Assembly: GCF_016865425.1 (NCBI RefSeq)
Contig: NZ_AP023355.1
Coordinates: 1,548,198-1,612,197 of the forward strand
Reading direction: 5' to 3'
Length of the DNA: 64,000 bases
Source of the DNA: Actinocatenispora thailandica
Lineage (GTDB): Bacteria; Actinomycetota; Actinomycetes; Mycobacteriales; Micromonosporaceae
Below the pieces are notes generated by a model. It was not told the DNA's origin, did no database searches, and saw nothing but the letters and a program-made list of their open reading frames with translations. Made by a program: the position numbers and the translations under genes. Positions 20,992 to 47,140 of the stretch are shown here, piece by piece; the first letter of the stretch is position 1, and each line of letters starts with the position of its first letter.

Positions 20992-21062
20992 GCGCCGCAC
21001 ACCGCCGGCACGAACCGACCACCGGCCCGCGCCGGACGAGCTGAGCCTGGGGAGTCTTTGCG

Positions 21063-24000: not shown

Positions 24001-24245
24001 TCGGCGGGTATGCCGGTGACGGCGCGGTGCCGCGCACCCCCGGCGAGGAGATCCTCGCGGCGGTCTTCGCCGACATCCTCGGCCTGCCGGCCGTCGGCGT
24101 CCGGGACTCGTTCTTCGACCTGGGTGGGCACTCGCTGCTGGCCACCCGCCTGGTCGGCCGGATCCGTGCCGAGCTGGGTGTCGAGGTGCCGGTGCGGGCG
24201 GTGTTCGAGACCCCGACGGTGGCGGGGCTGGCCACGCTCGTCGAC
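21063..24245 (+). other. NRPS module C-A-T, predicted Thr-like (DFWNVGMVVK)
   Basis: Nine of ten code positions equal the Thr code DFWNVGMVHK; position 331 is V instead of H (TETTVVN in place of TETTVH). Thr or a close relative such as allo-Thr or 2-aminobutyrate is likely. The A domain spans about 22450-23990 and the carrier serine codon is 24132-24134. Confidence 0.75.
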
Positions 24246-27200: not shown

Positions 27201-30200
27201 GCGGTGGACCCGCAGGCGCCGCGCGGCCCGCGGGAGGAGCTGCTGGCCGGCGTGTTCGCCGACGTGCTGGGCCTGCCGGCGGTCGGCGTGCACGACGGCT
27301 TCTTCGATCTGGGTGGGCATTCGCTGCTGGCGACGCGGCTGGTGAGCCGGGTCCGGTCGGTGCTGGGTGTCGAGGTGCCGGTGCGGGCGGTGTTCGAGGC
27401 GCCGACGGTGGCGGGGCTGGCGGCGCTGCTGGACCGCGAGCACGCCGCGGCCCGGCCGGCGCTGCGCCGGCTGCCGCGCCCGGAGCTGCTGCCGGTGTCG
27501 TTCGCGCAGCAGCGGCTGTGGTTCCTGCATCGGCTGGAGGGGCCGAGCGCGACGTACAACGTGCCGGTGGTGCTGCGGTTGACCGGCATGGTGGACGCGG
27601 ACGCGCTGACCGCGGCGGTGGGTGACGTGCTGGGCCGGCACGAAGCGCTGCGCACGGTCGTGACCGAGGTGGACGGCGAGCCGGTACAGACGGTGCTCGG
27701 CGCCACCGACGTGCCGGTGCCGGTGACGGTGGCAGCCGTCTGCGCCGGCGAGGTGGCCGCGACCATCGATGCCGCGGTCGGCCACCGGTTCGACCTGTCG
27801 GCGGAGGTCCCGGTGCGGGTGTCGTTGCTCGACGCCGGGGACGGGTCGTGGGTGTTGGTGGTGTTGTTGCACCACATCGCGGGGGACGGGTGGTCGATGG
27901 GTCCGTTGTTGCGGGACCTGTCGGTGGCGTATGCGGCGCGGCGGGGCGGCCAGGCGCCGGTGTTCGAGCCGCTTGCGGTGCAGTACGCGGACTACGCGCT
28001 GTGGCAGCGGGAGCTGCTCGGATCGGCAGACGACCCGGAGAGCCGGCTCGCCGGGCAGGTGGCGTACTGGCGGGACCGGCTGGCCGGGGTGCCCGACCAG
28101 CTCGCGTTGCCGTTCGACCGGCCGCGACCGGCGGTGGCCTCGTACCGGGGGGCGGTCGTCGGGTTCGCCATCGACGCCGAACTGCACGCCGGGCTGTCGG
28201 CGCTGGCCCGCCAGACCGGTACGACGGTGTTCATGGTGGTGCAGGCCGGTCTGGCGGCGCTGTTGACGCGGTTGGGTGCGGGGTCGGATGTGCCGATCGG
28301 GTCGCCGATCGCGGGTCGTACCGACGAGGCGTTGGACGAGTTGGTCGGGTTCTTCGTCAACACGTTGGTGTTGCGTACCGACACCGGCGGGGATCCGTCG
28401 TTCCGGGAGCTGTTGGGTCGGGTGCGGGAGACCGATCTGGCGGCGTATGCGAACCAGGACGTGCCGTTCGAGCGGTTGGTGGATGTGCTCAACCCGCACC
28501 GGTCGCTGGCGCACCACCCGCTGTTCCAGGTGATCCTCGCGTTCCAGAGCGAGGACGCGGGCACGTCCCTGCGGCTGGACGGCGCCGCCGCCGAACCGAT
28601 GCCGTTCGCCGGGCACAGCGCGCGGGTGGACCTGAGCGTGCTGGCGACCGAACGGTGGGCCGGCGGCCAGCCCGGCGGCATCGACGGCGCCGTCGAGTAC
28701 GCGGTCGACCTGTTCGACGCCGGCACGGTGCGCGCGCTGACCGAGGCGTGGACCGTGCTGCTGGCCGCGATGGTCGCCGACCCGGACTGCCGGCTCAGTC
28801 TGGTCGAACTGCCCGACGCGGCGCCGTCGGCACGCCGGTACGAGGCCGCCGACGTCCCCGCGGCGCGGACCGGTCGCGGGCTCGTCGGGTACGTGACGCC
28901 GCAGGACCCGGCGCGGCGACCCGACCCGGCGGCGGTGCGCCGGCGGGTCGCCGACCTGTTGCCCGCCTACATGGTGCCGGCCGCGGTCATGGTGCTCGAC
29001 GAGCTGCCGTTGACCGCCAACGGCAAGGTGGACCGGCGCGCGCTGCCGGCCCCCGACTTCGGTGCCGCCGCGACCGGTACCGCGCCGCGTACCCCGACCG
29101 AGGCGGCGCTGTGCGCGATCTTCGCCGAGGTGCTCGGTGTCGACGGCGTCGGTGTCGACGACGGCTTCTTCGACCTGGGTGGGCACTCGCTGCTGGCCAC
29201 GAGGCTGATCAGCCGCATCCGCGCGGTGCTGTCCGTCGAGGTCCCGGTGCGTGCGGTGTTCGAGACGCCGACCGCGGCCGGTCTCGCCGCGGTGGTCGCC
29301 GGTCGCGCCGGCACGTCCCGGCCGGCGCTGCGGCCGGTGCCGCGGCCGGAGCTGGTGCCGCTGTCGTACGCGCAGCAGCGGCTGTGGTTCCTCTACCGGC
29401 TGGAGGGGCCGAGCACGACGTACAACGTGCCGATGGCGCTCCGGCTCTGCGGTGACGTGGACGTCGCGGCGCTGGCCGCAGCGGTCACCGACGTGGCCGA
29501 GCGGCACGAGGCGCTGCGTACCGTGTTCGGCGAGGTCGATGGGCGGCCGGCGCAGACCGTGCTGCCGGCGACCGCGGTGCCGGTGGAGACGCTGCGCGTC
29601 GCCGCGGACGAGATACCCGGTCTGGTCGCCGGGTGGGCCGCCACCCGGCTGGAGCTGGCGACCGAGCCGCCGCTGAGGGCGTGGCTGGCCGACACCGGCG
29701 ACGGCGCGGTCACGCTCGTGCTGCTCGCGCACCACATCGCCAGCGACGGATGGTCGATGGGACCGCTGCTGGGCGACCTGGCGACCGCGTACGCCGCGCG
29801 CCGCGCCGGCACCGCGCCCGGCTGGGCGCCGCTGCCGGTGCAGTACGCCGACTACGCGCTCTGGCAGCGCGACCTGCTCGGCGACCCGGACCGGCCGGAC
29901 AGCCTGATCGCCGGCCAGGTGGCGTACTGGCGCCAGCGGCTGGCCGGGTTGCCGGAGGAGCTGACGCTGCCGCTCGACCGGCCGCGGCCGGCGGTCGCCT
30001 CGCACCGCGGTGGCACCCGCCCGTTCGACCTCGACCCCGCGCTGTACGCCGGCCTGACCGCGGTGGCGCGCGACGCCGGTACGACGGTGTTCATGGTGCT
30101 GCAGGCGGCGCTGGCGGCGCTGCTGACCCGGCTCGGCGCCGGCACCGACATCGCGATCGGCTCGCCGGTGGCCGGTCGTACCGACGAGGCGCTGGACGAG

Positions 30201-33200
30201 CTGGTCGGGTTCTTCGTCAACACGCTGGTGCTGCGCACCGACACGTCCGGCGACCCGACTTTCCGGGACCTGCTGGCCCGGGTCCGGGAGGACGACCTCG
30301 CGGCGTACGCGCACCAGGACGTGCCGTTCGAGCGGCTGGTGGACATCCTCAACCCGTCCCGGTCGCTGTCCCACCATCCGTTGTTCTCGGTCATCCTCGC
30401 GCTGCAGAACACCGCGGAGCCGGGCCTGACGCTGCCCGGCGCCGACGTCACGCCGCTGCCGCTGGACGCCGCCGGCGCGCTCGTCGACCTCAGCGTCAAT
30501 CTGCGCGAGGACCGGGACGCGGACGGTGCGCCGGCCGGGCTGCGCGGCTGGGTGGACTACGCGACGGACCTGTTCGACGCGGGCACCGTGGACGACCTGA
30601 CGGCGCGGTGGGTGCGGTTGCTGCGCGCGCTGGTCGCCGACCCGGACACCCGGTTGTCCGGCGTTGACCTGCTGGACGACGCCGAGCGGGCGGCCCTGGC
30701 CGTGGCACCCCGGACACCGGACGAGCCGGCGACGCTGGTGCGGCTGTTCGAGGACCGGGTCGGCGCCGACCCCGACGCGTGCGCGGTGGTGTGTGGCGAC
30801 CGGCGCAGCACGTACACGGAGCTGAACGAGCGGGCGAACCGGCTGGCGCGGCTGCTGCTGGCCGGCGGGGTGCGGACCGAGGACCGGGTCGCGCTGGTGC
30901 TGCCCCGGTCGGAGGACACGGTCGTGGCGATGCTGGCCGTGCTCAAGGCCGGCGCGGCGTACGCGCCGGTCGACCCGGACACGCCCACCGACCGGGTCGC
31001 ACTGGTGCTGTCCGGCACGCGGCCCGCGGCGGTCGTGCTCACCGCGGCCCACCGCGACCTGCTACCCGACGGCGTGCTGCCCGTCGTGCTCGGCGACGAC
31101 GCCACCGAACGGTCGCTGGCCGAACAGCCGGCTGGCAACCCGACCGACGCCGACCGCGGAGCGCCGCTGCACCCCGGACAGGCGGCGTACGTGATCCACA
31201 CGTCCGGCTCGACCGGCGTGCCGAAGGGTGTCGTCGTCTCGCACGCGAACGTGACGCGGCTGCTGGCGGTGACCCGCGACGCGTTCCGGTTCACCGCGGG
31301 CGACGTGTGGACGCTGTTCCACTCGTACGCGTTCGACTTCTCGGTGTGGGAGACGTTCGGGGCGCTGGCCTCCGGCGGCACGGTCGTGGTGGTCCCGGGC
31401 GAGCTGACCCGGTCGCCGGCCGAGCTGATCGGGCTGCTGGCCGCCGAACGGGTCACCGTGCTGAACGTGACGCCGTCGGTGTTCGCACAGCTGGTGGACA
31501 TCGCCCGGCGGGACTCCGCAGCGCTGGCCGGGCTGGCGCTGCGCCGGGTGATCTTCGGCGGGGAGGCGCTGGACGTGGCGCAGGTGTCCGAGTGGCGGCG
31601 GCTGGCGGGCCCGGACGGCCCGGCCCTGGTCAACATGTACGGCATCACCGAGACCACGGTGCACGTCACGTACGCGCCGCTCGGCGACGAGCCGGCCGGG
31701 GTGGGCAGCCCGATCGGCGTCCCGCTGGCCGACCTGGCCGCGTTCGTGCTCGACGACCGGCTGCGCCCGGTGCCGGACGGCGTGGCCGGCGAGCTGTACG
31801 TGGCCGGCGCCGGCCTGGCCCGCGGGTACCTGGGTCGGCCGGACCTGACCGCCGCGCGGTTCGTGGCCTGCCCGTGGGGTGCCGGCGAGCGGATGTACCG
31901 CACCGGCGACGTGGTCCGCCGCCGGCGCGACGGTGGCCTCGACTACCTCGGCCGGGCCGACGACCAGGTCAAGATCCGCGGGTTCCGGATCGAACCGGGC
32001 GAGGTCGAGGTGGCGCTGACCGCGCTGGCGCCGGTCGGCCGGGCCGTGGTCGTCGCGCGCGAGGACCGGCCCGGTGACCGCCGGCTCGTCGGCTACGTGA
32101 CGCCCGCCGACGCCGACCGGGTACCGGAGGCCGGCGAGCTGCGGCGCGCGGTGGCCCGGTCGTTGCCGGCGCATCTGGTGCCGGCGGCGGTGGTGGTGCT
32201 CGACGTGATGCCGCTGACCGACAACGGGAAGGTGGACCGGCGCGCGCTGCCGGCTCCCGAGTTCGGCGCCGCCGACGAGGCGCCGCGCGGTCCGCGGGAG
32301 GAGATCCTCGCCGGGGTGTTCGCCGAGGTGCTCGGTGTGCCGGCGGTTGGTGCCCGGGACTCGTTCTTCGATCTGGGTGGGCATTCGTTGCTGGCGACCC
32401 GGTTGGTGAGCCGGGTCCGGTCGGTGCTGGGTGTTGAGGTGCCGGTGCGGCTGGTGTTCGAGGCGCCGACGGTGGCCGGGCTGGCGCGCGCGATGGACGA
32501 GCACGCGGGTACGGCCCGGCCGGCGCTGCGTCGGATGCCGCGTCCGGAGCTGGTGCCGGTGTCGTTCGCGCAGCAGCGGCTGTGGTTCCTGGACCGGCTG
32601 GAGGGGCCGAACGCGACGTACAACGTGCCGCTGGCGCTGCGGTTGACCGGCACGGTGGACGCGGACGCGCTGACCGCGGCGGTGGGTGACGTGCTGGAGC
32701 GGCACGAGGCGCTGCGTACCGTCGTGGCCGAGGTGGACGGCCGTCCGGTGCAGCGGGTCCTCGATCCCGCGGACCTGCGCGTCCCGGTCACCATCGGTCG
32801 GACCGGTGATGTCGACGCGGCGGTCGCCGACGCGTCCGGGTACCGGTTCGACCTGTCGGCGGAGGTCCCGGTGCGGGTGTCGTTGGTGGACGCCGGGGAC
32901 GGGTCGTGGGTGTTGGTGGTGTTGTTGCACCACATCGCGGGGGACGGGTGGTCGATGGGTCCGTTGTTGCGTGACCTGTCGGTGGCGTATGCGGCGCGTC
33001 GGGAGGGTCGTGCGCCGGTGTTCGAGCCGTTGCCGGTGCAGTACGCGGACTACGCGCTGTGGCAGCGGGAGCTGTTGGGTGACGTCGAGGACCCGGGCAG
33101 CGTGGTGTCGGGTCAGGTGGCGTACTGGCGAAAGCGGCTGGCGGGGCTGCCGGAGCAGGTGGCGTTGCCGTTCGACCGGCCGCGGCCGGCGGTCGCCACG

Positions 33201-36200
33201 CACCGCGGCGCCGGCCACCCGTTCCGGCTCGACGACGACGTCCACGCCGGGGTCGTCCGGCTGGCCCGGGAGACCGGTACGACGGTGTTCATGGTGCTGC
33301 ACGCGGCGTTGGCGGCGCTGTTGACGCGGTTGGGTGCGGGGTCGGACGTGCCGATCGGGTCGCCGATCGCGGGTCGTACCGACGAGGCGTTGGACGAGTT
33401 GGTCGGGTTCTTCGTCAACACGTTGGTGTTGCGGACGGATACCGGCGGGGATCCGTCGTTCCGGGAGCTGTTGGGTCGGGTGCGGGAGACCGACCTGGCG
33501 GCGTATGCGAACCAGGACGTGCCGTTCGAGCGGTTGGTGGATGTGCTCAACCCGCACCGGTCGCTGGCGCACCACCCGCTGTTCCAGGTGATGCTGGCGT
33601 ACCAGTACGACGCGGGTGACGCGCTGCGCCTCGACGGCGTGTCGGCCGAGCCGCTGCCGGCGACGGCCGGCGCGGCCCGCGTCGACCTGAGCCTCAGCCT
33701 CGTGGACCGCGCGGACGGCGGCCTGGTCGGGCTGGCCGAGTACGCGACCGATGTGTTCGACGCCGCGACCGTCGAGGCGGTCGTGTCGCGCTGGGCGCGG
33801 GTGCTCCGGCAGGTCGTGGCCGACCCCGGCACCCGGGTCGGCAGCCTCGACCTGCTGGCGGACGCGGAGCGCCGCCGCCTGCTGCCGCGCGGCACCGGGC
33901 CGGTGGCCCCGGCCGCCACGCTGACCGAGCTGTTCGACGCCCGGGTGCGCGAGGCGCCGTCCGCGGACGCGGTGGTGTTCGGGGACGAGCGGGTGTCGTT
34001 CGCGGAGTTGGCGGCGCGGGTGGATCGGGTGGCGCGGCGGCTGGTGGCGCGGGGGGTTGGTCCGGGTGGCCGGGTCGGTGTGTTGCTGGACCGGTCGGTG
34101 GATCTGGTGGTGGCGATGCTGGCGGTGTGGCGGGTCGGCGCGGCGTATGTGCCGGTGGATGCGCGGTCGCCGGTGGCCCGGACGCGGTGGGTGTTGTCGG
34201 ATGCGGGGGTGTCGGTGCTGCTGGTGGACGCGGCGCACCGCGGGCACCCGGCGGCCGACGGGCGGGCCGTGCTGGACGTGTCGGACCACACCGGCGACGC
34301 CGACGCGGGCTCGTTCGCCGCGGCCGGCGTCGATTCCGCCGCGTACGTGATGTACACGTCGGGGTCGACCGGGGCGCCGAAGGGTGTGGTGGCCACGGTC
34401 GGCGACGTCGTGTCGTTGGTGTCGGACTCGTGCTGGGGTACGGGGCCGGACACGCGGGTGCTGTTCCAGGCGCCGTACGCGTTCGACGCCTCCTGTTACG
34501 AGGTGTGGGTGACGCTGCTGCGCGGCGGCTGCGTCGTCGTGGCGCCGGACGGGGACGGCGACGCCGGCTGGCTGCGCGGCCTGTTCGACCGGCACGCGGT
34601 GACCCACGCGCACCTGACCGCCGGCCTGCTGCGGGTCGTCGCGGAGCAGGACCCGGCCTGCTTCGCGCCGCTGACCGAGCTGCTGACCGGCGGCGACGCG
34701 GTGTCGGCCGCCGCCGTCGACCGGGTCCGGGCGGCCTGCCCGACGCTGCGGGTGCGCCACCTGTACGGGCCGACCGAGGTCACGCTGTGCGCCACGCAGC
34801 ACGTCGTCGAGCCGGACGCGCCGCGGGCCGACTGGCTCCCGCTGGGCCGGCCGCTGGACGACACCCGGGTGTACGTGCTCGACGAGTACCTGCAGCCGGT
34901 GCCGGACGGCGTGGCCGGCGAGCTGTACGTGGCCGGCGCCGGCCTGGCCCGCGGCTACCTGGGTCGGCCGGACCTGACCGCCGCGCGGTTCGTGGCCTGC
35001 CCGTGGGGTGCCGGCGAGCGGATGTACCGCACCGGCGACGTGGTGCGCCGACACGCCGGTGGGCTCCGGTTCGTCGGCCGCGCCGACGAGCAGGTCAAGA
35101 TCCGCGGGTTCCGGGTCGAGCTCGGCGAGGTCGAGGCGGCGCTCGCCGCGCTGCCGGACGTACGGCAGGCGGTGGTGGACGCGCGCGGCGAGTCGGGCGG
35201 TGAGCGGCGGCTGCTCGGGTACGTGACGCCCGGCGACGCCCGGCCCGCGCCGGCGGCGCTGCGCGCTCGGCTGGCCGACCTGCTGCCGGACTACATGGTG
35301 CCGGCCGCGGTGCTGGTGCTCGACACGCTGCCGGTCACCGCGAACGGCAAGGTGGACCGCCGGGCCCTGCCGGACCCCGACTTCGGCGCCGGCGACGAGG
35401 TACCGCGCAGCGCGCGCGAGCAGGTGCTGGCCGATGTGTTCGCCGACGTGCTCGGCGTGCCGGCGGTCGGTGTCCGGGACTCGTTCTTCGACCTCGGTGG
35501 GCATTCGTTGCTGGCGACGCGGCTGGTCAGCCGGATCCGCGCGGTGCTGGGTGTCGAGCTCGGCGTGCGCGAGATCTTCCAGACGCCGACCGCGGCCGGC
35601 CTCGCGGCGGTCCTCGACGAGCACTCCGGTACACCGCGCCCGGCGCTGCGCCCGGTGCCGCGTCCGGACGTGGTGCCGGTCTCGTTCGCGCAGCAGCGGC
35701 TGTGGTTCCTGTTTCGGCTGGAGGGGCCGAGCGCGACCTACAACGTGCCGCTGGCGATGCGGCTGACCGGCGCGGTCGACACCGACGCGATGCGCGCCGC
35801 GGTGGCCGACGTGATCGGCCGGCACGAGTCGCTGCGCACCGTGTTCACCGAGGTCGACGGGCGGCCGGCGGAGACGGTCCTGGCCGCGGAGGCCGCCGGG
35901 GCGCCGGTGCAGGTCGGCCGGGTCGACGACGTCGACGCGCTGGTGACGGCGGCGGCCGGGTACCGGTTCGACCTGTCGGCGGAGATCCCGGTCCGGGTGT
36001 GGCTGTCCGACGCCGGCGACGGGTCGTGGGTGCTGGTGCTGGTGGTGCACCACATCGCAACGGACGGGTGGTCGACCGGCCCGCTGCTGCGGGACCTGTC
36101 GGTGGCGTACGCAGCGCGTCGGGACGGTCGTGCGCCGGTGTTCGAGCCGCTGCCGGTGCAGTACGCCGACTACGCTCTCTGGCAGCGGGAACTGCTCGGT

Positions 36201-39200
36201 GACCCGGACGAGGAGGGCAGCCGCATCGCCGGCCAGGTGGCGTACTGGCGGGAGCGGCTGGCGGGGCTGCCGGAGCAGCTCGCGCTGCCGTTCGACCGGC
36301 CGCGGCCGGCGGTCGCCACGCACCGCGGCGCCCACCACGACTTCGCGCTCGACGCCGGGACGCACGCCGGGCTGGTGGAGCTGGCGCGTGGCACCGGTAC
36401 GACGGTGTTCATGGTGCTGCACGCGGCGCTGGCGGCGCTGTTGACGCGGTTGGGTGCGGGGTCGGACGTGCCGATCGGGTCGCCGATCGCGGGTCGTACC
36501 GACGAGGCGTTGGACGAGTTGGTCGGGTTCTTCGTCAACACGTTGGTGTTGCGGACGGATACCGGCGGGGATCCGTCGTTCCGGGAGCTGTTGGGTCGGG
36601 TGCGGGAGACCGACCTGGCGGCGTATGCGAACCAGGACGTGCCGTTCGAGCGGTTGGTGGATGTGCTCAACCCGCACCGGTCGCTGGCGCACCACCCGCT
36701 GTTCCAGGTGATGCTGGCGGTGCAGAACCGCACCGACGAAGGGGTCCGGGTGCCGGGGATGCGGGCCGACCTGGTGCCGTTCTCCGGCGGCGCCGCCCGG
36801 TTCGACCTGGGCGTGTACCTGGTCGAGGAGCGCTCCGGCGACGGCAAGCCGACCGGCGTCCAGGGCATGATCCAGTACGCCACGGACCTGTTCGATGCGG
36901 CCACCGTCGCCGCGATCGCCGACCGGCTGGTGCGCGTGTTGCGCCGGGTCGCCGCCGATCCGGACGTCCGGGTCGGCGAGCTTCCGGTGCTCGACGAGCC
37001 CGAGCGGCGTCTGCTGGTCGAGGAGTGGAACGCCACCGCCCGGCCGGTACCCGAGGCGACCGTCACCGACCTGGTCGAACGGCAGGTCGCCGGCACGCCG
37101 GGCGCCGAGGCCGTGGTCGCCGCGGACGCCCGCCTGTCGTACGCGCGGCTCAACGCGCAGGCCAACCGGCTCGCCCGGCTGCTCGTCGAGCACGGCGCGG
37201 GCCTGGAGGAACGGGTGGCGCTGCTGCTGGACCGCTCCGCGGACGTGGTCGTGGCCATGCTCGCGGTGCTCAAGGCAGGCGCGGCGTACGTGCCGGTCGA
37301 CCCGGCGTACCCGGCCGACCGGATCGCGTTCCTGCTCGACGACATCCGGCCGCGGCTGCTGCTGACCACCGCGGATCTGGCGCCGGACACCGACGTACCG
37401 GCGGTCGTGCTGGACGATCCGGGCGTCGTCGAGGCGCTGGCGGCGCGGCCCGAGCACGACCTCACCGACGCGGAGCGGGGCGCGGCGCTGCTGCCGACGC
37501 ACCCGGCGTACGTGATCTACACGTCCGGCTCCACCGGCCGGCCGAAGGGCGTCGTGGTCGAGCACCGCTCGGTCGTCAACTACCTGGCGCAGTGCCGCGA
37601 GTCGTACCCGACGCTCGCCGGCACTACCTTGCTGCACGCGTCGATCTCCTTCGACGCGGTGGTGACCAGCGTGTACGGCGCGCTGACCCGCGGTGGCCGG
37701 GTGCACGTCGCCGCGCTGGACGACGGGCTGGCCGACCTGCTCGACCGTGACGACCTCGGCTACGACTTCGTCAAGGTCACCCCGAGCCACCTGGCGCTGC
37801 TGACCTCGGCGCTGCCGGCGCGGTGCTCGCCGACCGGGCAGCTGATGGTCGGCGGCGCCGCCGTGCGGGGCGAGCAACTGCGCGAGTGGCGCGATCGGCA
37901 CCCCGGAGTGCCGATCGTCAACCACTACGGCCCCACCGAGGCGACGGTCGGCTGTACCCAGCATCCGGTGCCGACCGATGCCGAGATCGCGGACGGCCCG
38001 GTGCCGATCGGCCGGCCGTTCGCCAACACCCGGGTCCACGTGCTCGACGACGCGCTGCGGCCGGTGCCGGTCGGGGTGGCCGGCGAGCTGTACGTCGCGG
38101 GCGCGGCGCTGGCCCGCGGCTACTGGGCCCGGCCGGCGCTGACCGCCGGCCGGTTCGTGGCCTGCCCGTGGGGCGACGGCGAGCGGATGTACCGCACCGG
38201 AGACGTGGTGCGGTGGCGGCCGGACGGCGAGCTGGAGTACCTGGGCCGCGCGGACGACCAGGTGAAGATCCGCGGCTTCCGGATCGAGCTGGGCGAGATC
38301 GAGGCCGCGCTCGCGGCGTCGCCGGGCGTGGCGGACGCCGTGGCGGTCGCCCGTGCGGACCGCCCCGGCGACGAGCGGCTCGTCGGGTACGTGACGGCCG
38401 CCGCCGGGCACACACCGGACCCGGTGGCGCTGCGCCGCGAACTGGGCGCCACGCTCCCGACGTACCTGGTGCCGTCGCTGGTGGTGCTGCTCGACCGGCT
38501 GCCGCTCACCCACAACGGGAAGGTCGATCGCCGGGCACTGCCCGCGCCGGACCTGTCGGGGCTGGCGGGCCGGTCGGCGCCGCGGCGGCCCGCGGAGGCG
38601 GTCCTGTGCGGCCTCGTCGCCGAGACGCTCGGCCTGCCGGCCGTCGGCGTCGACGACAACTTCTTCGACCTGGGCGGGCACTCGCTGCTCGCGACCCGGC
38701 TGATCAGCCGGGTCCGCGAGGTGCTGGGGGCGGAGGTGCCGCTGCGTGCGGTCTTCGCGACGCCGACGCCGGCCGGCCTGGCGCGGCACGTCACGGGCCG
38801 CGACGACACCGGCGACGACGGCTTCGACGTGCTGCTTCCGCTGCGGCCCACCGGGGACCGGCCGCCGCTGTTCTGCGTGCACCCCGGGATCGGGATCAGC
38901 TGGATCTACTCCCGGCTGCTGCGCCACCTCGACGCCGACCAGCCGGTGTACGGACTGCAGGCGCGCGCGATCACCCGCGTCGACGGGCTGCCGACCACGA
39001 TCGACGAGATGGCCGCCGACTACCTGGAGCAGGTGCGGCGGGTCCAACCGCACGGCCCGTACCGGCTGCTGGGCTGGTCGTTCGGCGGCGCGGTCGCGCA
39101 CGCGATGGCGGTCCGGCTGGAGGAGCTGGGCGAGCGGGTGGAGCTTTTGGCGATGCTCGACGGCCACGTGACCGGTGACGGTGGGTTCCGGATGCCGGCC

Positions 39201-39602
39201 GAGCGCGACCTCGTCGCAGGCCTGCGGCACCTGGCGCCGGACGCGACGGCCGACCCGGACGGCGCGGAGATCACGCCGCTCGTGCTCGACCGGGTGCGGG
39301 AGCTCGATCCCGGCCTGGCCGTGCTGGCCGAGGAGAACTTCGCCGGCTTCTACCGCGCCACGGTCAACATCGAACGACTCGCCCGGGGCTTCGCCCCGCG
39401 TACCTACGGCGGCGACCTGCTCTACTTCGCCGCCAGCGTCGACGCCGACCCGAGCCAGCTCGCCGAGTCGTGGCGGCCGTACGTCGGCGGCGACATCGAG
39501 GAACACCGCGTCGACTGCCGGCACCTGGACATGCTCCGACCGGAGCCGGCGGCCGAGATCGGAACCCGGCTCGCGCGCAGACTGCGCGAGCTTGACCAGT
39601 AG
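21063..39602 (+). CDS. Six-module terminal NRPS with an A-less module and thioesterase
   Basis: This 6179-residue protein has domains C-A-T, C-A-T, C-(A tail)-T, C-A-T, C-A-T, C-A-T-TE. The ATG at 21063 has GGGGAG at 21049-21054; the protein starts directly at the first C motif ([13 protein letters not shown]) without an N-terminal docking region. Codes are DFWNVGMVVK (Thr-like), DAYHLGLLCK (Hpg), none in module 3, DFWNIGMVHK (Thr), DAYHLGLLCK (Hpg) and DATKMGHVGK (Asp-like). Carrier serines are residues 1024, 2087, 2709, 3775, 4815 and 5874. The type I thioesterase has GWSFGG (Ser6006), with Asp6033 and His6154 in catalytic positions, so chain release by hydrolysis or cyclisation happens here. 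All C domains look LCL and no E domain is present. The gap to the upstream NRPS is 71 nt and to mbtH 19 nt, so the genes are probably cotranscribed. Confidence 0.97.
21483..21681 (+). repeat. C-domain DNA repeat, copy 2 (partner 13870-14068)
   Basis: This second copy is in the first C domain of the six-module protein. Confidence 0.85.
24295..27435 (+). other. NRPS module C-A-T, predicted 4-hydroxyphenylglycine
   Basis: The code DAYHLGLLCK is the same as in the third module of the preceding protein. TSGSTG lies near 26160, and the A4 core reads FDASCYELW. The carrier serine codon is 27321-27323. Confidence 0.87.
27480..29310 (+). other. NRPS module lacking its adenylation core: C-(A9-A10 remnant)-T
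   Basis: The C domain is complete, with HHIAGDG near 27871 and the full N-terminal and C-terminal halves. It ends near 28815. Only about 65 residues of an adenylation domain follow (about 28870-29060), beginning at [11 protein letters not shown] and including the A10 lysine motif TANGKVDR. Cores A1 to A8, including the TSGSTG loop and all substrate-reading positions, are absent. A normal carrier follows ([10 protein letters not shown], serine codon 29187-29189). The reading frame is unbroken and no other frame holds the missing core, so this is a real deletion in the sequence given. Loading must come from another adenylation domain, or the module is skipped. Confidence 0.93.
28172..28498 (+). 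repeat. C-domain core DNA repeat, copy 2 (in the A-less module)
   Basis: Nearly identical to 6631-6957 (offset 21541). This copy lies in the C domain just before the missing A core. Confidence 0.85.
29345..32505 (+). other. NRPS module C-A-T, predicted Thr
   Basis: The code is DFWNIGMVHK, the canonical threonine code. HHIASDG in C is near 29731, TSGSTG near 31200, and the carrier serine codon is 32385-32387. The A10-T-C segment is almost identical in DNA to that at 5559-6031. Confidence 0.9.
32166..32638 (+). repeat. NRPS A10-T-C DNA repeat, copy 2 (partner 5559-6031)
   Basis: This is the same segment as 5559-6031, in the other large NRPS gene. Both follow a Thr-code A domain and precede the C domain of the next module. 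The near identity at silent sites shows recent exchange. Confidence 0.85.
33274..33598 (+). repeat. C-domain core DNA repeat, copy 3
   Basis: About 325 bp nearly identical to 36394-36718 (offset 3120), and to copies 1 and 2 over the [18 protein letters not shown] to RLVDVLNP part. Confidence 0.85.
33945..34250 (+). repeat. Hpg A-domain DNA repeat, copy 2 (partner 11731-12036)
   Basis: 306 bp identical by eye to 11731-12036. The third Hpg A domain (from about 25680) is clearly diverged in this part, so exchange involved only these two. Confidence 0.88.
35665..39599 (+). other. NRPS terminal module C-A-T-TE, Asp-like code DATKMGHVGK
   Basis: The A4 core is [10 protein letters not shown] and A5 is [12 protein letters not shown], giving DATKMGHVGK. 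Aspartate and asparagine domains have codes of the DLTK...VGK type, so an acidic small residue such as Asp, or an analogue, is likely. The carrier serine codon is 38682-38684. The thioesterase runs from about 38825 to the stop with GWSFGG at 39072-39089. Confidence 0.8.
36394..36718 (+). repeat. C-domain core DNA repeat, copy 4
   Basis: About 325 bp, partner of 33274-33598, in the C domain of the terminal module. Confidence 0.85.
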
Positions 39603-39621: not shown

Positions 39622-39861
39622 ATGCCCAACCCGTTCGACGACACCGACGGCCGGTTTCTGGTGCTGATCAACGACGAGCGGCAGTACTCGCTGTGGCCGG
39701 CCGCGATCGACGTGCCGCCCGGCTGGACCGTCACGCTGACCGAGAGCGACCACCAGACCTGCGTGGACTACATCGAGGAGCACTGGACGGACATGCGACC
39801 CCGCAGCCTGGTCGAGGCGATGGAGGCCGACGCGGCGTCGCGCGCGTCGGCGGAGGGGTAG
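39622..39861 (+). CDS. mbtH: MbtH-like NRPS accessory protein
   Basis: This 79-residue protein is a typical MbtH family member in length and sequence: MPNPFDDTDGRF, the NDERQYSLWP core, IDVPPGW, and DYIEEHWTDMRP. MbtH proteins bind the adenylation domains of many actinobacterial NRPSs and are needed for their solubility or activity. It lies 19 nt after the terminal NRPS gene and 8 nt before hmo, so it probably serves the A domains of this locus. The start ATG has GGAAGGA about 8 nt upstream. Confidence 0.97.
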   Translation: MPNPFDDTDGRFLVLINDERQYSLWPAAIDVPPGWTVTLTESDHQTCVDYIEEHWTDMRPRSLVEAMEADAASRASAEG

Positions 39862-39869
39862 GCGCCGAC

Positions 39870-40970
39870 ATGACCCGCTCCGGCGTCGCGCCGGAAAGCC
39901 TGGCCGCGGTGCGCCGGCTCGCCGAGTCGCTGCTGCCCGGCGACGTGTGGGACTTCATCGAGGGCGGCGCCGACGGCGAGACCGCCCTCGCCGCCAACCG
40001 CGCCGCGCTCGACCGGGTGCGGCTGCTGCCGCGGGTACTGGCCGGGCTGTCCGAGGTGACCACTGCCGGCACGCTGCTCGGGTCAGCGGCCGGTATGCCG
40101 GTCGCGGTGGCGCCGATGGCCTACCAGCGGCTCGCGCACCCGGACGGCGAGTCGGCCGTGGCGCGGGCCGCGCGCGACGCCGGGGTGCCGTTCGTCGCGG
40201 CGATGCTGGCCAGCGCCACGATCGAGGAGATGGCCGAGTTGGGCGGCGCGCCCTGGCTCCAACTCTACTGGCTGCGCGACCGCGGCCTGCTGGCTGAGCT
40301 GGTCGCCCGCGCCGAACGTGCCGGGTACCGCGGGCTGTTCGTGACCGTCGACGTCCCGGTGCTCGGCAACCGGCTGCGGGACGTCCGCAACCGATTCACG
40401 CTGCCCGCCGACGTCGGGCCGGTCAACCTGTCCGGCGGGCCGGTCGCCGCGCACGACCGGGTCGACGGCGACTCGGCCGTGGCCGTGCACACCAGCGCCA
40501 TGTTCGCGCCGGACGCCGGCTGGCAGGACCTGGCGTGGCTGCGCGAGCGAACGGCGCTGCCGCTGGCGGTCAAGGGCGTCCTCGATCCGCGGGACGCGCG
40601 GCACGCGGTGGACCGCGGCGCCGACGCGGTCGTCGTGTCCAACCACGGCGGCCGGCAGTTCGACGGCGCCGCGGCCAGCGTCGACGCGCTGCCGGCGGTC
40701 GTCGAGGCGGTCGGCGACCGTGCCGAGGTGCTGCTCGACGGCGGGGTCCGCAGCGGCACCGACGTGCTGCGGGCGCTGGCGCTCGGCGCGTCCGGCGCGC
40801 TGCTGGGCCGGCCGGTTCTGTGGGGGCTGGCGACCGGCGGCGAGTCGGGGGTGGCGCGGGTGCTGGAGATCGTGCGTGCGGAGCTGGCGCGCGGGCTGAC
40901 GCTCGCCGGCTGCGCCGACCCGGCCGCCGCGGCGGCCCTGGACGTGCTGGGGGTTGGACATGCTCGGTGA
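39870..40970 (+). CDS. hmo: 4-hydroxymandelate oxidase (FMN-dependent)
   Basis: This 366-residue member of the FMN-dependent 2-hydroxyacid dehydrogenase (glycolate oxidase) family oxidises 4-hydroxymandelate to 4-hydroxybenzoylformate, the third step from 4-hydroxyphenylpyruvate to 4-hydroxyphenylglycine. Family motifs seen are DFIEGGADGE near the N-terminus, PMAYQRLAHPDGE, the FMN/substrate motif VVVSNHGGRQFDG with the catalytic His, and LLDGGVRSGTDVLRALALGA. The start ATG at 39870 is 8 nt after mbtH; an in-frame extension upstream runs through mbtH and is not used. The 3' end overlaps hpgT by 11 nt. Function as Hmo rather than another hydroxyacid oxidase rests on the adjacent hpgT and on three Hpg-type A domains. 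Confidence 0.93.
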   Translation: MTRSGVAPESLAAVRRLAESLLPGDVWDFIEGGADGETALAANRAALDRVRLLPRVLAGLSEVTTAGTLLGSAAGMPVAVAPMAYQRLAHPDGESAVARAARDAGVPFVAAMLASATIEEMAELGGAPWLQLYWLRDRGLLAELVARAERAGYRGLFVTVDVPVLGNRLRDVRNRFTLPADVGPVNLSGGPVAAHDRVDGDSAVAVHTSAMFAPDAGWQDLAWLRERTALPLAVKGVLDPRDARHAVDRGADAVVVSNHGGRQFDGAAASVDALPAVVEAVGDRAEVLLDGGVRSGTDVLRALALGASGALLGRPVLWGLATGGESGVARVLEIVRAELARGLTLAGCADPAAAAALDVLGVGHAR

Positions 40971-42276
40971 GCTGGAGACGGGGCCGGACCTGGCGGCCGA
41001 CCTGCTGCACGGTTCGCTCGGCGATCCGTCGCTGACCTCGATGAACTTCCTCAACGAGATCACCGGCCGGTACCCGGACGCGGTGTCGTTCGCGCCTGGC
41101 CGACCGTACGAGGGGTTCTTCGACCGGGCCTCACTGCACGACGACATCGAGGCGTTCCACGAGTACCTGCGCACCGGGACCGGAGCGTCGGAGGCCGAGG
41201 CCGACCGGGCCCTGTTCCAGTACGGGCGCACCAAGGGCATCGTGCACGGGCTGATCGCCGCGCAGCTGCGGGCCGACGAGGGCATCGACGTCGACCCGGA
41301 GTCGATCGTGGTGACCGTCGGCTGCCAGGAGGCGATGTTCCTGACGCTGCGCGCGTTGCGGGCCGACGAGCGGGACGTGGTGCTGTCGCTGTCGCCGATG
41401 TACGTCGGCTTCACCGGCGCCGCCCGGCTGCTGGACCTGCCGGTGCTGCCGGTGTCCGGCGGCACCACCGGCGTCGACCTGGACGACCTGCGCGAGACCG
41501 TGCGGCGGGCGCGGGCGGCCGGCCGCCGACCCCGGGCCTGCTACATGATGCCCGACTTCGCCAACCCGTCCGGGCTCAGCCTCGACCTGCCGACCCGGCG
41601 CGCCCTGCTGGAGCTGGCGGAGGGCGAGAACATCCTGCTGCTGGAGGACAACCCGTACGGCATGTTCCACGACGGGTACGGCCGCCTGCCGACGCTCAAG
41701 GCGCTGGACACCGCGCGCCGCGTGGTGTACCTGGGGTCGTTCGCCAAGACCGTGCTGCCCGGCGCCCGCGTCGGGTACGTCGTGGCCGATCAGCGGGTGC
41801 GGGCCGCGGACGGCACCGGGTCGCTGTTCGCCGACGAGCTCGCCAAGATCAAGAGCATGGTGAGCGTCAACACCTCGCCGGTCGCGCAGGCGGTGATCGG
41901 CGGCGCCCTGGTCCGTGGCGGCGGCAGCCTCGCGGCGCGCAACGAGCCGCTGCGCGCGCGGTACCAGCGCAACCTCGCCCGGGTGCTCGCCGGGCTCCAA
42001 CGCCACCTCGGCGACCGCACCGACGTCACCTGGAACGCGCCGACCGGCGGCTTCTTCGTCGTGGTCGAGGTCGGCTTCCCGGTGACGAACGAGGCGCTGG
42101 AGCGCTCCGCACGCGAGTTCGGGGTGCTGTGGACGCCGATGGCGTACTTCTACGTCGGCGACGGCGGACGTCGGCACCTGCGGCTGTCGTTCAGCCTGCT
42201 GACCGACGAGCAGATCGACGAGGGGCTGTCCCGGCTGGCCGCGTTTCTCGCCGCCGAGGACGACCGCACCGCCTGA
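40960..42276 (+). CDS. hpgT: 4-hydroxyphenylglycine aminotransferase
   Basis: This 438-residue PLP-dependent fold-type I aminotransferase converts 4-hydroxybenzoylformate to L-4-hydroxyphenylglycine, normally with tyrosine as amino donor, closing the Hpg cycle. Visible motifs are FNEITGRYPDAVSFAPGRP-like N-terminus (here FLNEITGRYPD), the cofactor Asn/Asp regions PDFANPSG and LLLEDNPYGMF, and the Schiff-base lysine in GSFAKTVLPGARVGY (Lys263). I chose ATG 40960 because GGGGG at 40949-40953 is well spaced; a TTG two codons earlier is also in frame. It overlaps hmo by 11 nt, which suggests coupled translation. HmaS, which makes 4-hydroxymandelate, is not in this window. Confidence 0.93.
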   Translation: MLGELETGPDLAADLLHGSLGDPSLTSMNFLNEITGRYPDAVSFAPGRPYEGFFDRASLHDDIEAFHEYLRTGTGASEAEADRALFQYGRTKGIVHGLIAAQLRADEGIDVDPESIVVTVGCQEAMFLTLRALRADERDVVLSLSPMYVGFTGAARLLDLPVLPVSGGTTGVDLDDLRETVRRARAAGRRPRACYMMPDFANPSGLSLDLPTRRALLELAEGENILLLEDNPYGMFHDGYGRLPTLKALDTARRVVYLGSFAKTVLPGARVGYVVADQRVRAADGTGSLFADELAKIKSMVSVNTSPVAQAVIGGALVRGGGSLAARNEPLRARYQRNLARVLAGLQRHLGDRTDVTWNAPTGGFFVVVEVGFPVTNEALERSAREFGVLWTPMAYFYVGDGGRRHLRLSFSLLTDEQIDEGLSRLAAFLAAEDDRTA

Positions 42277-42305: not shown

Positions 42306-44984
42306 ATGCGCGACCCGGACAGCGAACCGGCCGAGCGGCACCGGCCGTTCCCGCTCACCGACGGGCAGGTGGCCGACCTGCTGGACCGGCGGGCCGGTGC
42401 GGGCGACGCGCCGCGGGTCGGCTACGGCGAGCTGCGATACGCCGAGCTGGACCTCGACCGGCTCGCCGCCGCCTGGCGCGGGCTCGTCGCCGACCACGAC
42501 ATGCTGCGCGTCGCGGTGGAGCGCACCGGCTCGCAGCGGGTGCCGCCGGACGGCGGCGACCTCGACGTGCGGGTGGCCGACGACGGGCTCGCGGCGGTGC
42601 GTGCCGAGTTGGCCGGGGCGGCCCGCGACCCGTACCGTCGGCCGCTCGCCGCGGTGCGCGCGGTGCGCACCCGGGACGGCTGGGTCGTGGCCGTCGCCGT
42701 CGACGCGCTCGCCTGCGACCTGCGCGGCCTGCGCGCGGTGCTGGCGGAGCTGCACCACCGGTACGCCGAGCCGGGCCGGTCGTGGCCGGTGCCGGGCCGC
42801 TCGTTCCGCCAGTGGCACCTGGCGGCGCGGGCCGCCGCGGAGGCCGGCGGGCTGGCCGCCGACCGGGCGTACTGGGCGGCGCTGCTCGACGAGGTGCCGC
42901 CCGCGCCGGAGCTGCCCGCCGCGGCACCCGGCGCGCCGGCCGGCCCGCCCGCGGCGGAGCCGGCCGGTACGGGGGCGCGCGCCGGAATGCCGGGCCGGCG
43001 TCGGGTCGCGCTGGACGCGGGGGAGTGGGCGGCGCTGACCGCGCGGGCGGCGGCGGCCGGCGTCGACCCGGCGTCGGCGGTGCTGTACTCGTACGCCGAG
43101 GTGGTCGGCCGGTGGAGCCGGAACCGGTCGTTCACGCTGACCGTCGTCGGTGTCGGCGACACCCGCGACGGCGACCCGGTCGGCCCGCACGCCGAGCCGG
43201 CGCTGCTCGCCGTGCGGCACGAGCCGGGCGACACGTTCGCCGGGCGTACCCGGCGGCTGGCCGCGACCGTCGCCCACGACGCCGAACACCGGCACTGGTC
43301 GGGTGTCGCGGTGGCCCGGGAACTCGCCGCGCGTACCGGTCGGGCCGGTGGGCCTCCGCCGATCGGCTACACCGACGCGATCGGCGCGGCCCCGTCGCCG
43401 TCCGCCGCGTCCCCGTGCATCGCCGCCCGCATCCCGGGTACCTGGCTCGACTGCCAGGCGCAGGAACACGACGGCGGTCTCGTCGTGCGCTGGGACGCGC
43501 GCGAGGAGTCCTTCGCGCCGGGAGTGCTCGACGACATGGTCGATGCGCACGCGGCGCTGTTGCGCGGGCTGGCCGCCGGCGACGCCGCCTGGCACTCTGT
43601 CACCCCGGTCGGGCTGCCGGCCGCGCAGCGGGCGCGCCGCGCGGCGTACAACGACACGGTGGCGCCGGTGCCGGGTGGCCTGTTGCACGAAGGGGCCGTG
43701 GCGTGGGCGCTGCGCGATCCGGACCGGCCCGCCGTGATCGGCCGGGACGGCACCGTCAGCCACGGTGAGCTGCTGCGCAGGGCGCTCGGAGTCGCCGGGC
43801 GGCTGCGCGACGCCGGGCTGCGTCCGGGCGGGATGGTCGCGGTGGTGATGGAGAAGGGCGTCGAACAGGTCGTGGCCGTGCTCGGCGTGCTGCTGGCCGG
43901 CGGCGCGTACCTGCCCGTCGACGCCTCTCAGCCGGTCGCGCGGCGCGACGTGGTCCTCGCCAACGCCGGCACGGTCGCCGTGCTCACCCAGTCCTGGCTG
44001 CCCGTCCGGCCCTGGCCCGACGGCCTGGCGCCGATCGCGGTCGACCGGGTGCCGCCCGCGCCCGCCGGCACGCCGGTGCCGCCGGCGCGGGCGACGCCGG
44101 CCGACCTGGCGTACGTCATCTACACGTCCGGCTCGGCGGGGCGGCCGAAGGGTGTGATGATCGATCACCGGGGCGCGGTGAACACCGTGACCGACATGAA
44201 CACCCGGTTCGGCATCGGGCCGGACGACCGGGTGATCGCGCTGGCGAGCCTCGGCTTCGACCTGTCGGTGTGGGACATCTTCGGCACGCTCGCCGCCGGC
44301 GGCGCGCTGGTGCTGCCGGATCCGGCCGCGCCGGCCGATCCCGAGCACTGGGCCGGGCTGATCGCCGAGCACGGCGTCACCGTGTGGAACTCGGTGCCGG
44401 CGCAGCTGCAACTGCTGGTCGACCACCTGGAATCGGTGCCGGACCGACGGGTCGGCACGATGCGGCTCGCGTGGCTGTCCGGCGACTGGATCCCGGTCAC
44501 GCTGCCCGACCGCGCGCGGGCCGTGCTGCCCGGGCTGTCGGTGGTCAGCCTCGGCGGCGCGACCGAGGCGTCGATCTGGTCGATCCACCATCCCGTCGGC
44601 GAGGTGGAACCCGGCTGGTCGAGCATCCCGTACGGCCGGCCGCTGACGAACCAGACGTTCCACGTGCTCGACGACGACCTGGCCGACCGGCCGGAGTGGG
44701 TCGCCGGCGAGCTGTACATCGGCGGGGTCGGCGTGGCCCGCGGTTACCAGGGAGACGCCGGTCGCACCGCCGAACACTTCCTGGTCGACGCCGGCACCGG
44801 CCGCCGGCTGTACCGGACCGGTGACCTGGGGCGGTTCCTGCCGTCCGGGGTCATCGAGTTCCTCGGCCGGGAGGACACCCAGGTGAAGATCCACGGCCAC
44901 CGCATCGAACTGGCCGAGGTGGAGCGGGCGCTGCTCGCCGACCCGACCGTGGGCGCGGCAGTGGTGACCGTGGACGGGCGGTGA
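42306..44984 (+). CDS. Free-standing Cy-A NRPS protein, truncated after A8, no T domain
   Basis: This is an 892-residue protein with GGAAGGA upstream of ATG 42306. Residues 1 to about 430 look like a heterocyclization (Cy) domain: start FPLTDGQVADLL, the Cy motif D-A-L-A-C-D (Asp133 and Asp138; the usual DxxxxD), ARDPYRRPL, and IPGTWLDCQ followed by SFAPGVLDDM near the end. A normal C domain would have HHxxxDG instead. The adenylation part has TSGSAGRPKG, FDLSVWDIF, LSGDWIP and GGATEASIW, giving code DLWNWSLI.., close to cysteine codes of thiazoline synthetases (DLYNLSLIWK type). It ends at GHRIELAEVERAL...VVTVDGR, so the A10 motif with the catalytic lysine and any carrier domain are missing. 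It sits 29 nt after hpgT. Possible roles are trans-supply for the A-less module, a regulatory or non-catalytic partner, or a decaying relic. Confidence 0.9.
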   Translation: MRDPDSEPAERHRPFPLTDGQVADLLDRRAGAGDAPRVGYGELRYAELDLDRLAAAWRGLVADHDMLRVAVERTGSQRVPPDGGDLDVRVADDGLAAVRAELAGAARDPYRRPLAAVRAVRTRDGWVVAVAVDALACDLRGLRAVLAELHHRYAEPGRSWPVPGRSFRQWHLAARAAAEAGGLAADRAYWAALLDEVPPAPELPAAAPGAPAGPPAAEPAGTGARAGMPGRRRVALDAGEWAALTARAAAAGVDPASAVLYSYAEVVGRWSRNRSFTLTVVGVGDTRDGDPVGPHAEPALLAVRHEPGDTFAGRTRRLAATVAHDAEHRHWSGVAVARELAARTGRAGGPPPIGYTDAIGAAPSPSAASPCIAARIPGTWLDCQAQEHDGGLVVRWDAREESFAPGVLDDMVDAHAALLRGLAAGDAAWHSVTPVGLPAAQRARRAAYNDTVAPVPGGLLHEGAVAWALRDPDRPAVIGRDGTVSHGELLRRALGVAGRLRDAGLRPGGMVAVVMEKGVEQVVAVLGVLLAGGAYLPVDASQPVARRDVVLANAGTVAVLTQSWLPVRPWPDGLAPIAVDRVPPAPAGTPVPPARATPADLAYVIYTSGSAGRPKGVMIDHRGAVNTVTDMNTRFGIGPDDRVIALASLGFDLSVWDIFGTLAAGGALVLPDPAAPADPEHWAGLIAEHGVTVWNSVPAQLQLLVDHLESVPDRRVGTMRLAWLSGDWIPVTLPDRARAVLPGLSVVSLGGATEASIWSIHHPVGEVEPGWSSIPYGRPLTNQTFHVLDDDLADRPEWVAGELYIGGVGVARGYQGDAGRTAEHFLVDAGTGRRLYRTGDLGRFLPSGVIEFLGREDTQVKIHGHRIELAEVERALLADPTVGAAVVTVDGR

Positions 44985-44991
44985 GCGGGCG

Positions 44992-46272
44992 TCAGCGGAC
45001 GCCGTCGTACGCGCTGTCGAGCCGCCGGAGGAACGCCGGGTCGGCGACCCGTCCCGCCTCCGCGGTGAGCACCGGGGCCGGCACCGCGTCGGCGTGTGCC
45101 CGCAGCCGTCCGCCGCCGGTGACGTTGAGCAGGACGGTCGCGTCCGGCGGGACGCGCCGCGCCCGGACGGCCTGCTGCAGGCAGGCCACCGCCACCGCGG
45201 CGGCCGGCTCGATGTCCACACCTTCGAGTCGCCGGAACGCCTCGCCCGCGGCGTGCGCCGCGGCCCCGTCGGCGACGAGCATGTCGCCACCGCTGGCGCT
45301 CAGGCAGTCCCGGACACCGCCGCGGACCGCGTACGGCGGGCGGCGGTTGGTCAGCTCGGCGGCGAACACCGGCGGTACCGCCGCGACCGGGCCCTTCGGT
45401 CGCCGGTGCCAGGCGTCGTACAGCGGGGCGAACGCCGCGTTCTGGCCGAGCATCAGCCGGGGTGTGCGGCTCGCGACTCCCGCCCGGACGAGGCGCTGGG
45501 CCGTCTCGTGCACGCCGATCGCGCCGGCGCCGCTGCCGACCGCCTGGAAATAGAACTCCGGCAGCTCGCCGATCTCGTCGAACGCCGCGAGCAGAACGGT
45601 ACCGAGACCGGCGCGGCGGGCAATGTTGCGCGTGCCGCCCTCCGACACGCCGCCGATCATCGCGACCAGTGACTCGCCGAATGCGATCGTGTCCGCATAA
45701 TCGGCCCCGTTCAGAGCGACCATCGTCACACACGGATCCAGCGGTTCGGCAAAGCGAAGGTGTCCGACGCCGCGCACCGGGACGACGACGACACACCGAA
45801 CGCGTCGCCGGGAGGCCAGCAGCGCGAATGCCGCGGCCGTGTTTCCGGCGGACGACACCACCAGCGGCGGCGGGTCGGCCGGCAGCCGGCCCAGCACGCA
45901 GTACGCCTCAAGCTCCTTGAACGTCGCCGTCGCCATGCCGCCGGAACGCTCCGGCCAGTACCCGTTGAACGCCACCCACAGCCGGCGCAGGCCGAGCTCG
46001 CCGGCCAGCGCGGTACTGCGGTAGACGACCGTGCCGGACGCATTCGGCACGTCACGCCGAACTGGCAGCCACGACCGGTAGCGGAACGGTCCCGGGTCCG
46101 GCCCCGCCGGCACCGCTCGGCTGGCCGGATCGACCTGCAGCAACGCCGGCTCGTGCCGGCTCGGGCAGTCGAGGATCAGGCCGTCGTCGACGCTGCGCCA
46201 CGAGCAGACCGGGCAGACGACGTGATAGGCGGGGTCGTGCGCACGACCCCGCGGCCCGGCGGCTGGTTCCAC
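44992..46272 (-). CDS. Cysteate synthase / threonine synthase-like PLP enzyme
   Basis: This is a 426-residue fold-type II PLP enzyme. The N-terminus has a zinc-ribbon-like CPVCSW...LDCP stretch (YHVVCPVC), as in the cysteate-synthase branch of the threonine-synthase family. The PLP lysine is in TATFKELEAY (Lys119), and VVSSAGNTAAAFA is the phosphate/substrate loop. Threonine synthase uses phosphohomoserine; cysteate synthase uses phosphoserine and sulfite. The substrate here cannot be told from sequence by eye. The GTG start at 46272 has AAGGGGG just upstream, and similarity begins there; the frame stays open farther upstream without family resemblance. Its stop faces that of the Cy-A gene with 7 nt between. 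It may supply a non-protein amino acid to the NRPS, but the opposite strand makes membership in the locus less certain. Confidence 0.8.
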   Translation of the reverse strand: MEPAAGPRGRAHDPAYHVVCPVCSWRSVDDGLILDCPSRHEPALLQVDPASRAVPAGPDPGPFRYRSWLPVRRDVPNASGTVVYRSTALAGELGLRRLWVAFNGYWPERSGGMATATFKELEAYCVLGRLPADPPPLVVSSAGNTAAAFALLASRRRVRCVVVVPVRGVGHLRFAEPLDPCVTMVALNGADYADTIAFGESLVAMIGGVSEGGTRNIARRAGLGTVLLAAFDEIGELPEFYFQAVGSGAGAIGVHETAQRLVRAGVASRTPRLMLGQNAAFAPLYDAWHRRPKGPVAAVPPVFAAELTNRRPPYAVRGGVRDCLSASGGDMLVADGAAAHAAGEAFRRLEGVDIEPAAAVAVACLQQAVRARRVPPDATVLLNVTGGGRLRAHADAVPAPVLTAEAGRVADPAFLRRLDSAYDGVR

Positions 46273-46519
46273 GCTGCCCCCTTGGGATTTCTCGCGGCTG
46301 CTTCCACAGCACTCCGGTTGTTCGCGGGAGAAACGCCGAACGGCCGCGCGACCGGGAGTGGCGGGTGTGTCCGGGCCGCGACGCCTGATGCCGCGCCGAG
46401 AATAACGCACGGATCGTCGCCGACCGCGAAGGTTGCGCCGTATCACCATCGGGAACCGATTCCGTGGGCCGGACAACCTCGCATTTGATCGCCAACGCCG
46501 AGCTGCGCGCGCTCGTCGA
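46273..46519. other. Intergenic region upstream of the PLP enzyme
   Basis: These 247 bases separate the - strand PLP enzyme from the 3' end of the membrane-protein gene. It is slightly less GC-rich than the genes. It should hold the PLP-gene promoter, but I see no clear -35/-10 pair or repeat. Confidence 0.4.
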
Positions 46520-47140
46520 TCACGTGCTGCGGGCGGCGGCTCCTCCGTCCGCACCCTGACCCGGGTGCCGTGGCCCCGGGGCGCGCCGCGGCGCGGCCGA
46601 CGACGACGTGGGCCGCGCGGCGAGCCAGGCGGATCTGCGCAGTGCGGCGGCGAACCGGCGGACCGCGTTGCGGTTGTCCCGGTCCGCCGCGGCGGCCACG
46701 ATCAGCACCAGCGGCACGAGCATGATGCCAGCGCCGATGACGATCTCGCCGATGTCACCGGCCCGGCTGTAGGCGTCCGAGCGGATCGTCGCGGTCGCGG
46801 GTCGGCCAGGCACGTAGTGGACGCGCACGACGTCGCCGACGTGTTCCCCGCCGGCCTGCCAGTATTCGTAGGTGCCCGCCGGTGTCGTGTAGCGGACCCG
46901 GACCCACCGCGTGTTGCTCTGCGGCCCCCGATCCCTGCGCGTTGCCACGATGGTCCCGGGCACGGTGCGCCCGCGCGCGGCGATCACGGCGGCGTCGTGC
47001 AGCCGGTGCCGGCCATCCAGGACGCACCAGTATCCGAACCCGGCGAGCAGCGCGAACAGCGCGGCCATGAGGGCGAGTTTCGCGCCGATGTTGACGCGGG
47101 CGCCGAACCGGCGCAGCCCGACCTGTCCGCCGCTTCCCAT
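46520..47140 (-). CDS. DUF3592-like membrane protein
   Basis: This 206-residue protein has two predicted membrane segments, about residues 19-40 (AKLALMAALFALLAGFGYW) and 134-157 (GEIVIGAGIMLVPLVLIVA), on either side of an extracytoplasmic beta-rich part. That part contains RTVPGTIVATRR, WVRVRYTTPAGTYEYW and VRVHYVPGRPATATI, the pattern of DUF3592 proteins. The biochemical role of this family is unknown. The C-terminal 50 residues are basic, Ala/Arg-rich and probably disordered. The start ATG is at 47140-47138. It is transcribed towards the PLP enzyme but 247 nt away, so probably not part of the NRPS locus. Confidence 0.75.
   Translation of the reverse strand: MGSGGQVGLRRFGARVNIGAKLALMAALFALLAGFGYWCVLDGRHRLHDAAVIAARGRTVPGTIVATRRDRGPQSNTRWVRVRYTTPAGTYEYWQAGGEHVGDVVRVHYVPGRPATATIRSDAYSRAGDIGEIVIGAGIMLVPLVLIVAAAADRDNRNAVRRFAAALRRSAWLAARPTSSSAAPRRAPGPRHPGQGADGGAAARST

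Follow-up and report, generated by a model that had tools for sequence, protein, structure and literature searches.

Within the literature searched, there is a single split adenylation (A) domain with demonstrated function, and its halves lie on neighbouring genes: corallorazine Crz1 A2 is inactive alone and becomes active once it is mixed with Crz2, which carries the A9 and A10 motifs (PMC11342130). The authors of that study suggested that the split point could be used for engineering (PMC11342130), and the loop between A8 and A9 is a known hot spot of recombination and insertion (PMC11342130, PMC8949500). In the stand-alone A-T systems of SyrB1, ramoplanin and enduracidin, a separate protein serves a module without a working A domain of its own; the A domain follows an N-terminal extension in the ramoplanin and enduracidin proteins, and in ramoplanin this divergent N-terminal region is needed for trans-complementation (PMC8949500).

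Here we compare with these systems a nonribosomal peptide synthetase (NRPS) cluster of Actinocatenispora thailandica, located in a window (the whole stretch of DNA that was analysed) of 64 000 nt. As in corallorazine, the core through A8 lies on one protein and A9/A10 on another, with the break between A8 and A9, and by analogy with Crz1 A2 the core protein studied here, Cy-A, is predicted to be inactive alone. However, the crz halves are encoded by two neighbouring ORFs, and the core protein there includes an nMT, whereas here the Cy-A gene lies ∼13 kb downstream of the A10 half and encodes no methyltransferase (MT). Furthermore, the core here stands free as the Cy-A protein, and the A10 half lies inside a six-module NRPS, flanked by the C and the carrier (T) domain of its module. 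The SyrB1, ramoplanin and enduracidin proteins have a complete A domain and their own T domain, whereas Cy-A lacks both A10 and T, which the recipient module would supply. With thiazoline-type Cy-A proteins carrying an inserted domain and a T domain (L109–L127; PchE, 7emy), Cy-A shares ∼50% identity over its length and a Cys-type pocket, but those relatives have an intact Cy domain and a long tail past the split loop, while here Cy is decayed and nothing follows the A8–A9 loop. The best match among solved structures, by sequence and by fold, is FmoA3 (PDB 6lta, Cy-A-T, alpha-methylserine), which has a complete C-terminal subdomain and a T domain, unlike Cy-A. The preliminary description of this gene knew of no close described example; the experimentally shown split A domain of Crz1/Crz2 is one (PMC11342130). 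A free-standing A core that completes an internal module, by contrast, appears to be undescribed in the literature searched.

The Cy-A protein ends between A8 and A9

The features of the gene and of its convergent neighbour are as follows.

42306–44984, + strand: Cy-A gene (892 aa), encoding a decayed Cy domain, the A core and the N-terminal half of the A-domain C-terminal subdomain (Asub), then stop
42345–43589, + strand: decayed heterocyclization (Cy) domain; DALACD kept, VGDFT changed to VGPHA, SQTPQV to ARIPGT and FTS to YTD
43638–44870, + strand: A core with A1–A7, reaching the A8 hinge; the pocket reads DLWNWSLIW, AlphaFold pLDDT mostly >85
44871–44981, + strand: first half of Asub (A8 to strand AAVVTV), ending in a loop between two strands
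44992–46554, − strand: cysteate synthase, convergent (TIGR03844 at 352 bits, cut-off 324.9), lying 7 bp past the Cy-A stop; its true start is probably inside this ORF

We confirmed the earlier reading that the protein stops after A8, without an A10 lysine or a carrier domain. The chain ends with GREDTQVKIHGHRIELAEVERALLADPTVGAAVVTVDGR at 44984 and matches the A C-terminal subdomain profile at positions 6–65 of 133 only, with nothing after, so that it lacks A9, the A10 lysine and T and is not a complete A domain with its own T. The core is matched by TIGR01733 (AA-adenyl-dom) over residues 485–887 (profile 1–409/409, 397 bits), and the motifs A1–A8 are present. The cysteine-like code that had been noted holds as well, the nine pocket positions reading DLWNWSLIW. 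The assignment of a heterocyclization-type domain stands in part: DxxxxD (DALACD) and WLDCQ are retained, but VGDFT and SQTPQV are lost, and the Pfam score of 26.4 bits lies below the cut-off of 30.6.

A frameshift near 44980 can be ruled out, because the cysteate synthase occupies the opposite strand from 44992 and because no orphan A10 or T profile match was found downstream of the Cy-A stop in any frame in the 172 kb around the window that were covered by the domain scan.

NRPS2 module 3 carries the complementary half

An A9/A10 half without its own core is found on another protein of the same cluster, in module 3 of NRPS2 (28881–29300).

21063–39602, + strand: NRPS2, CAT-CAT-C[A10]T-CAT-CAT-CAT with a thioesterase-like C-terminus (domain scan)
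27486–28823, + strand: module 3 C domain, HHIAGDGW intact (profile and motif)
28824–28880, + strand: short 19-residue linker replacing the A core in module 3 (sequence reading)
28881–29060, + strand: second Asub half with A9 and A10 (LVGYVTP...YMVP...), no preceding A core (profile, alignment)
29025–29027, + strand: A10 lysine codon of module 3 (NGK), position counted from the sequence
29094–29300, + strand: module 3 T domain, GGHSLL intact (profile and motif)

The Asub match of module 3 covers profile positions 70–133 only, with the C domain before it and T after it; A9 reads YMVP and the A10 lysine is intact within NGKVDR. All other modules of NRPS2, and those of NRPS1, are intact in the domain scan. 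With an intact A domain of this NRPS as the reference, the alignment of Cy-A extended up to residue 430 and that of module 3 started from 436, and in the AlphaFold model of the intact domain 430–436 is the surface loop joining strands 421–429 and 437–444. The combined halves miss ∼5 loop residues and no secondary-structure element is lost. We also compared a genome-wide list of A cores with a genome-wide list of A10-T tails: Cy-A alone among the NRPS A cores has no tail, and among the A10-T tails only that of module 3 has no core. One further orphan tail candidate, at 5401316, turned out to be a PKS carrier protein. We estimate the chance of both break points falling within ∼5 residues at ∼2% if they were uniform over the domain, a figure which a hot spot raises; since the A8–A9 loop is known as such, matching break points could arise twice independently.

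In the AlphaFold model of Cy-A the core is confident, but the half Asub (861–890) has a pLDDT of 57–66 and its last strand is unformed, compared to ∼74–86 and a formed strand in the equivalent region of the intact control. This fits a fragment that would need a partner, although it is weak evidence, as the alignments behind the two models differ.

Conservation and decay of the two halves

Next, we compared Cy-A with 94 Cy-A relatives at invariant alignment columns (80 in Cy, 126 in A). The Cy domain deviates at 26 of its 80 columns, while the relatives show a median of 3 and a maximum of 12. The A core retains 121 of 126, and its five deviations are equalled or exceeded in 25 of the 94 relatives. 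On the basis of these counts we read the A domain as being retained by selection and the Cy domain as dropped. The five A-core deviations include a Y-to-W change at position 239 of the pocket. The pocket is DLYNLSLIW or DLYNMSLIW in 77 of the 94 relatives, and both W residues together occur in none of them. The code is Cys-like, and the substrate is probably Cys or a residue of similar or smaller size; cysteate is not favoured, as the pocket departs from the Cys code only by the two bulky W residues.

The A10 half of module 3 is nearest to its sister modules, with ∼81% DNA identity to module 5. Its pN to these sisters is 0.20, compared to 0.218 among the intact sisters, at similar pS, and therefore it gives no sign of decay, although a recent loss could look alike.

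Relatives and origin

The nearest relatives of Cy-A are actinobacterial Cy-A proteins with 46–52% identity over near-full-length matches, and their sequence continues past the split loop into a long insertion, which we read as putatively of the methyltransferase type. Judging from these similarities, the Cy-A core derives from Cys-activating enzymes of the thiazoline-forming type and the A10 half of module 3 from the resident NRPS; given these differing origins, the halves may or may not fit.

A conserved homologue of the same length, which the preliminary description had pointed to as a check, was not found: the short form is absent from all 35 closest actinobacterial relatives and from 77 further homologues (genome_contigs), all of which either carry a tail or are cut off by a contig end; it was seen only here. 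One locus (L070) looked like a second short form with its 10-aa tail, but it runs to the contig end. Hence there is no co-conservation to support the split. Tailed homologues and a short form that is not conserved had been named beforehand as arguments against a genuine short enzyme, and both are seen; the local frameshift named along with them is not, and a complementary half exists.

The C-A10-T junction had no match in 354 other genomes of the family at blastn sensitivity (DNA queries), and in a plasmid collection, which does contain Cy-A matches, no junction match covered 80% of the query. A search of viral_contigs gave no matches. In the homologous loci, 189 of 199 A cores have a full Asub, nearly all others being contig ends, inserted domains or other ligases. 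Five A-less C-T modules occur in these loci, and an intact A10 half is present in none; a degenerate one is seen in a single Planctomycetota module. This C-T module (L091, ORF 13146–22404) holds a degenerate A C-terminal remnant, LPRKEDLVDKEKL, with no NGK, and exemplifies a decayed A10 half, in contrast to NRPS2 module 3.

Alternative explanations

We consider Cy-A to be the N-terminal part of a split A domain, which provides NRPS2 module 3 with an A core in trans, with a probability of about 0.6. The preliminary description had offered three options, an enzyme complemented by another protein, working differently or dead. The first is favoured because module 3 keeps exactly the missing A9/A10 half together with a T domain, and the other two are less favoured. 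If both pieces were dead, a full-tailed Cy-A would have been cut on arrival of the cysteate synthase and module 3 would have lost its A core, so that the line stalls or skips this module. Such a history would account for the lack of an orthologue of the short form, for the clearly decayed Cy domain and for a stop 7 bp from the convergent gene, at a point which relatives read straight past. However, the A core is undecayed although the Cy domain of the same protein has decayed, module 3 has an undecayed A10 half and T and the remaining modules are all intact, and we regard the loss of both pieces as unlikely. Still less probable is that a complete A domain of another module loads the module 3 T domain in trans and Cy-A is irrelevant. 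Loading of this kind has been shown for capreomycin, where CmnA-A1 loads CmnI (PMC12400406), and several Thr and Hpg A domains lie nearby, but it would explain neither the well-kept Cy-A core nor the retained A9/A10 half, found intact in 0/5 of the other A-less C-T modules in homologous loci.

Members of the A-domain family require the A10 lysine for the adenylation half-reaction. Cy-A might work without it if adenylation were slow and the aminoacyl-AMP were handed to the module 3 T domain or to another acceptor. The intact motifs A1–A8 would allow for this, but we judge it very improbable, since the missing half exists beside the T domain that needs loading and since Crz1 A2 lacking A9/A10 gave no turnover (PMC11342130). 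Finally, NRPS repeats misassemble easily, and a collapsed repeat could have deleted the A core of module 3 or the tail of Cy-A. Such an error is scarcely credible here, as at the module 3 junction a unique linker connects non-homologous sequences in frame and not inside a shared repeat, a distinct convergent gene replaces the Cy-A tail and the genome is a single contig.

Proposed mechanism

We infer that, as a split A domain, Cy-A would bind NRPS2 module 3 in trans, and that the C-[A9/A10]-T segment would complete the C-terminal subdomain and bring in the A10 lysine. The rebuilt A domain would adenylate one small amino acid and load the module 3 T domain, and the module 3 C domain would then catalyse peptide bond formation at position 9 of the product, a predicted peptide of 12 residues rich in Thr and Hpg. 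From the A codes we take this peptide to be Ser-Thr-NMeThr-Hpg-X-NMeThr-Thr-Hpg-[position 9]-Thr-Hpg-Asp-like, with the residue names following code tables. The Cy domain would no longer cyclize and would survive as a scaffold or docking surface. Because the N-terminal extension is required for trans-complementation in ramoplanin, the decayed Cy domain is perhaps a docking platform.

There is an even chance that Cy-A represents a natural ‘plug-in’ A core, in which an old Cys-activating Cy-A derivative, its Cy domain turned into a docking part, completes an internal module by subdomain complementation at the A8–A9 loop and provides a new substrate without fusion. If the split reading is true, A-domain subdomains of different lineages would be exchangeable between proteins in nature, and the A8–A9 loop would be a site for swapping substrate choice without rebuilding the synthetase.

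Cluster context

Besides NRPS2, Cy-A and the cysteate synthase, the cluster contains the following genes.

ending at 2830: A-T-(C/E-like) protein (domain scan)
∼2851–20991, + strand: NRPS1, five complete modules, CAT, CA(MT)T, CAT, CAT, CA(MT)T (domain scan)
39622–39861, + strand: MbtH-like protein, between NRPS2 and the oxidase (motif and reading frame)
39921–40970, + strand: FMN-dependent dehydrogenase; probably the hydroxymandelate oxidase for Hpg supply
40954–42276, + strand: PLP aminotransferase, probable HpgT-type

Together with an HPPD-like protein encoded upstream, the dehydrogenase and the aminotransferase look like a 4-hydroxyphenylglycine supply. In NRPS1, modules 2 and 5 have an N-methyltransferase inserted in the A domain (8755–10060 and 19438–20725); these two regions share 87% DNA identity, which suggests duplication or conversion.

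The cysteate synthase gene (44992–46554, − strand) sits inside the NRPS cluster, and a literature search combining cysteate synthase with nonribosomal peptide returned no paper. An orthologue with 50% identity occurs in one other genome of the family (G333, L128/L129), between NRPS modules; at that locus no split A domain was seen among the NRPS modules nearby. The last A domain of NRPS2 (37059–38552) has the Asp-like code DATKMGHVG and could be the entry point of a cysteate or Asp residue.

Upstream of the window, two 100% identical transposase-bearing elements of 1282 bp lie in the same orientation at approximately −65256 to −63975 and −7817 to −6536 relative to window base 1, and the ∼57 kb between them hold a separate NRPS/PKS cluster.
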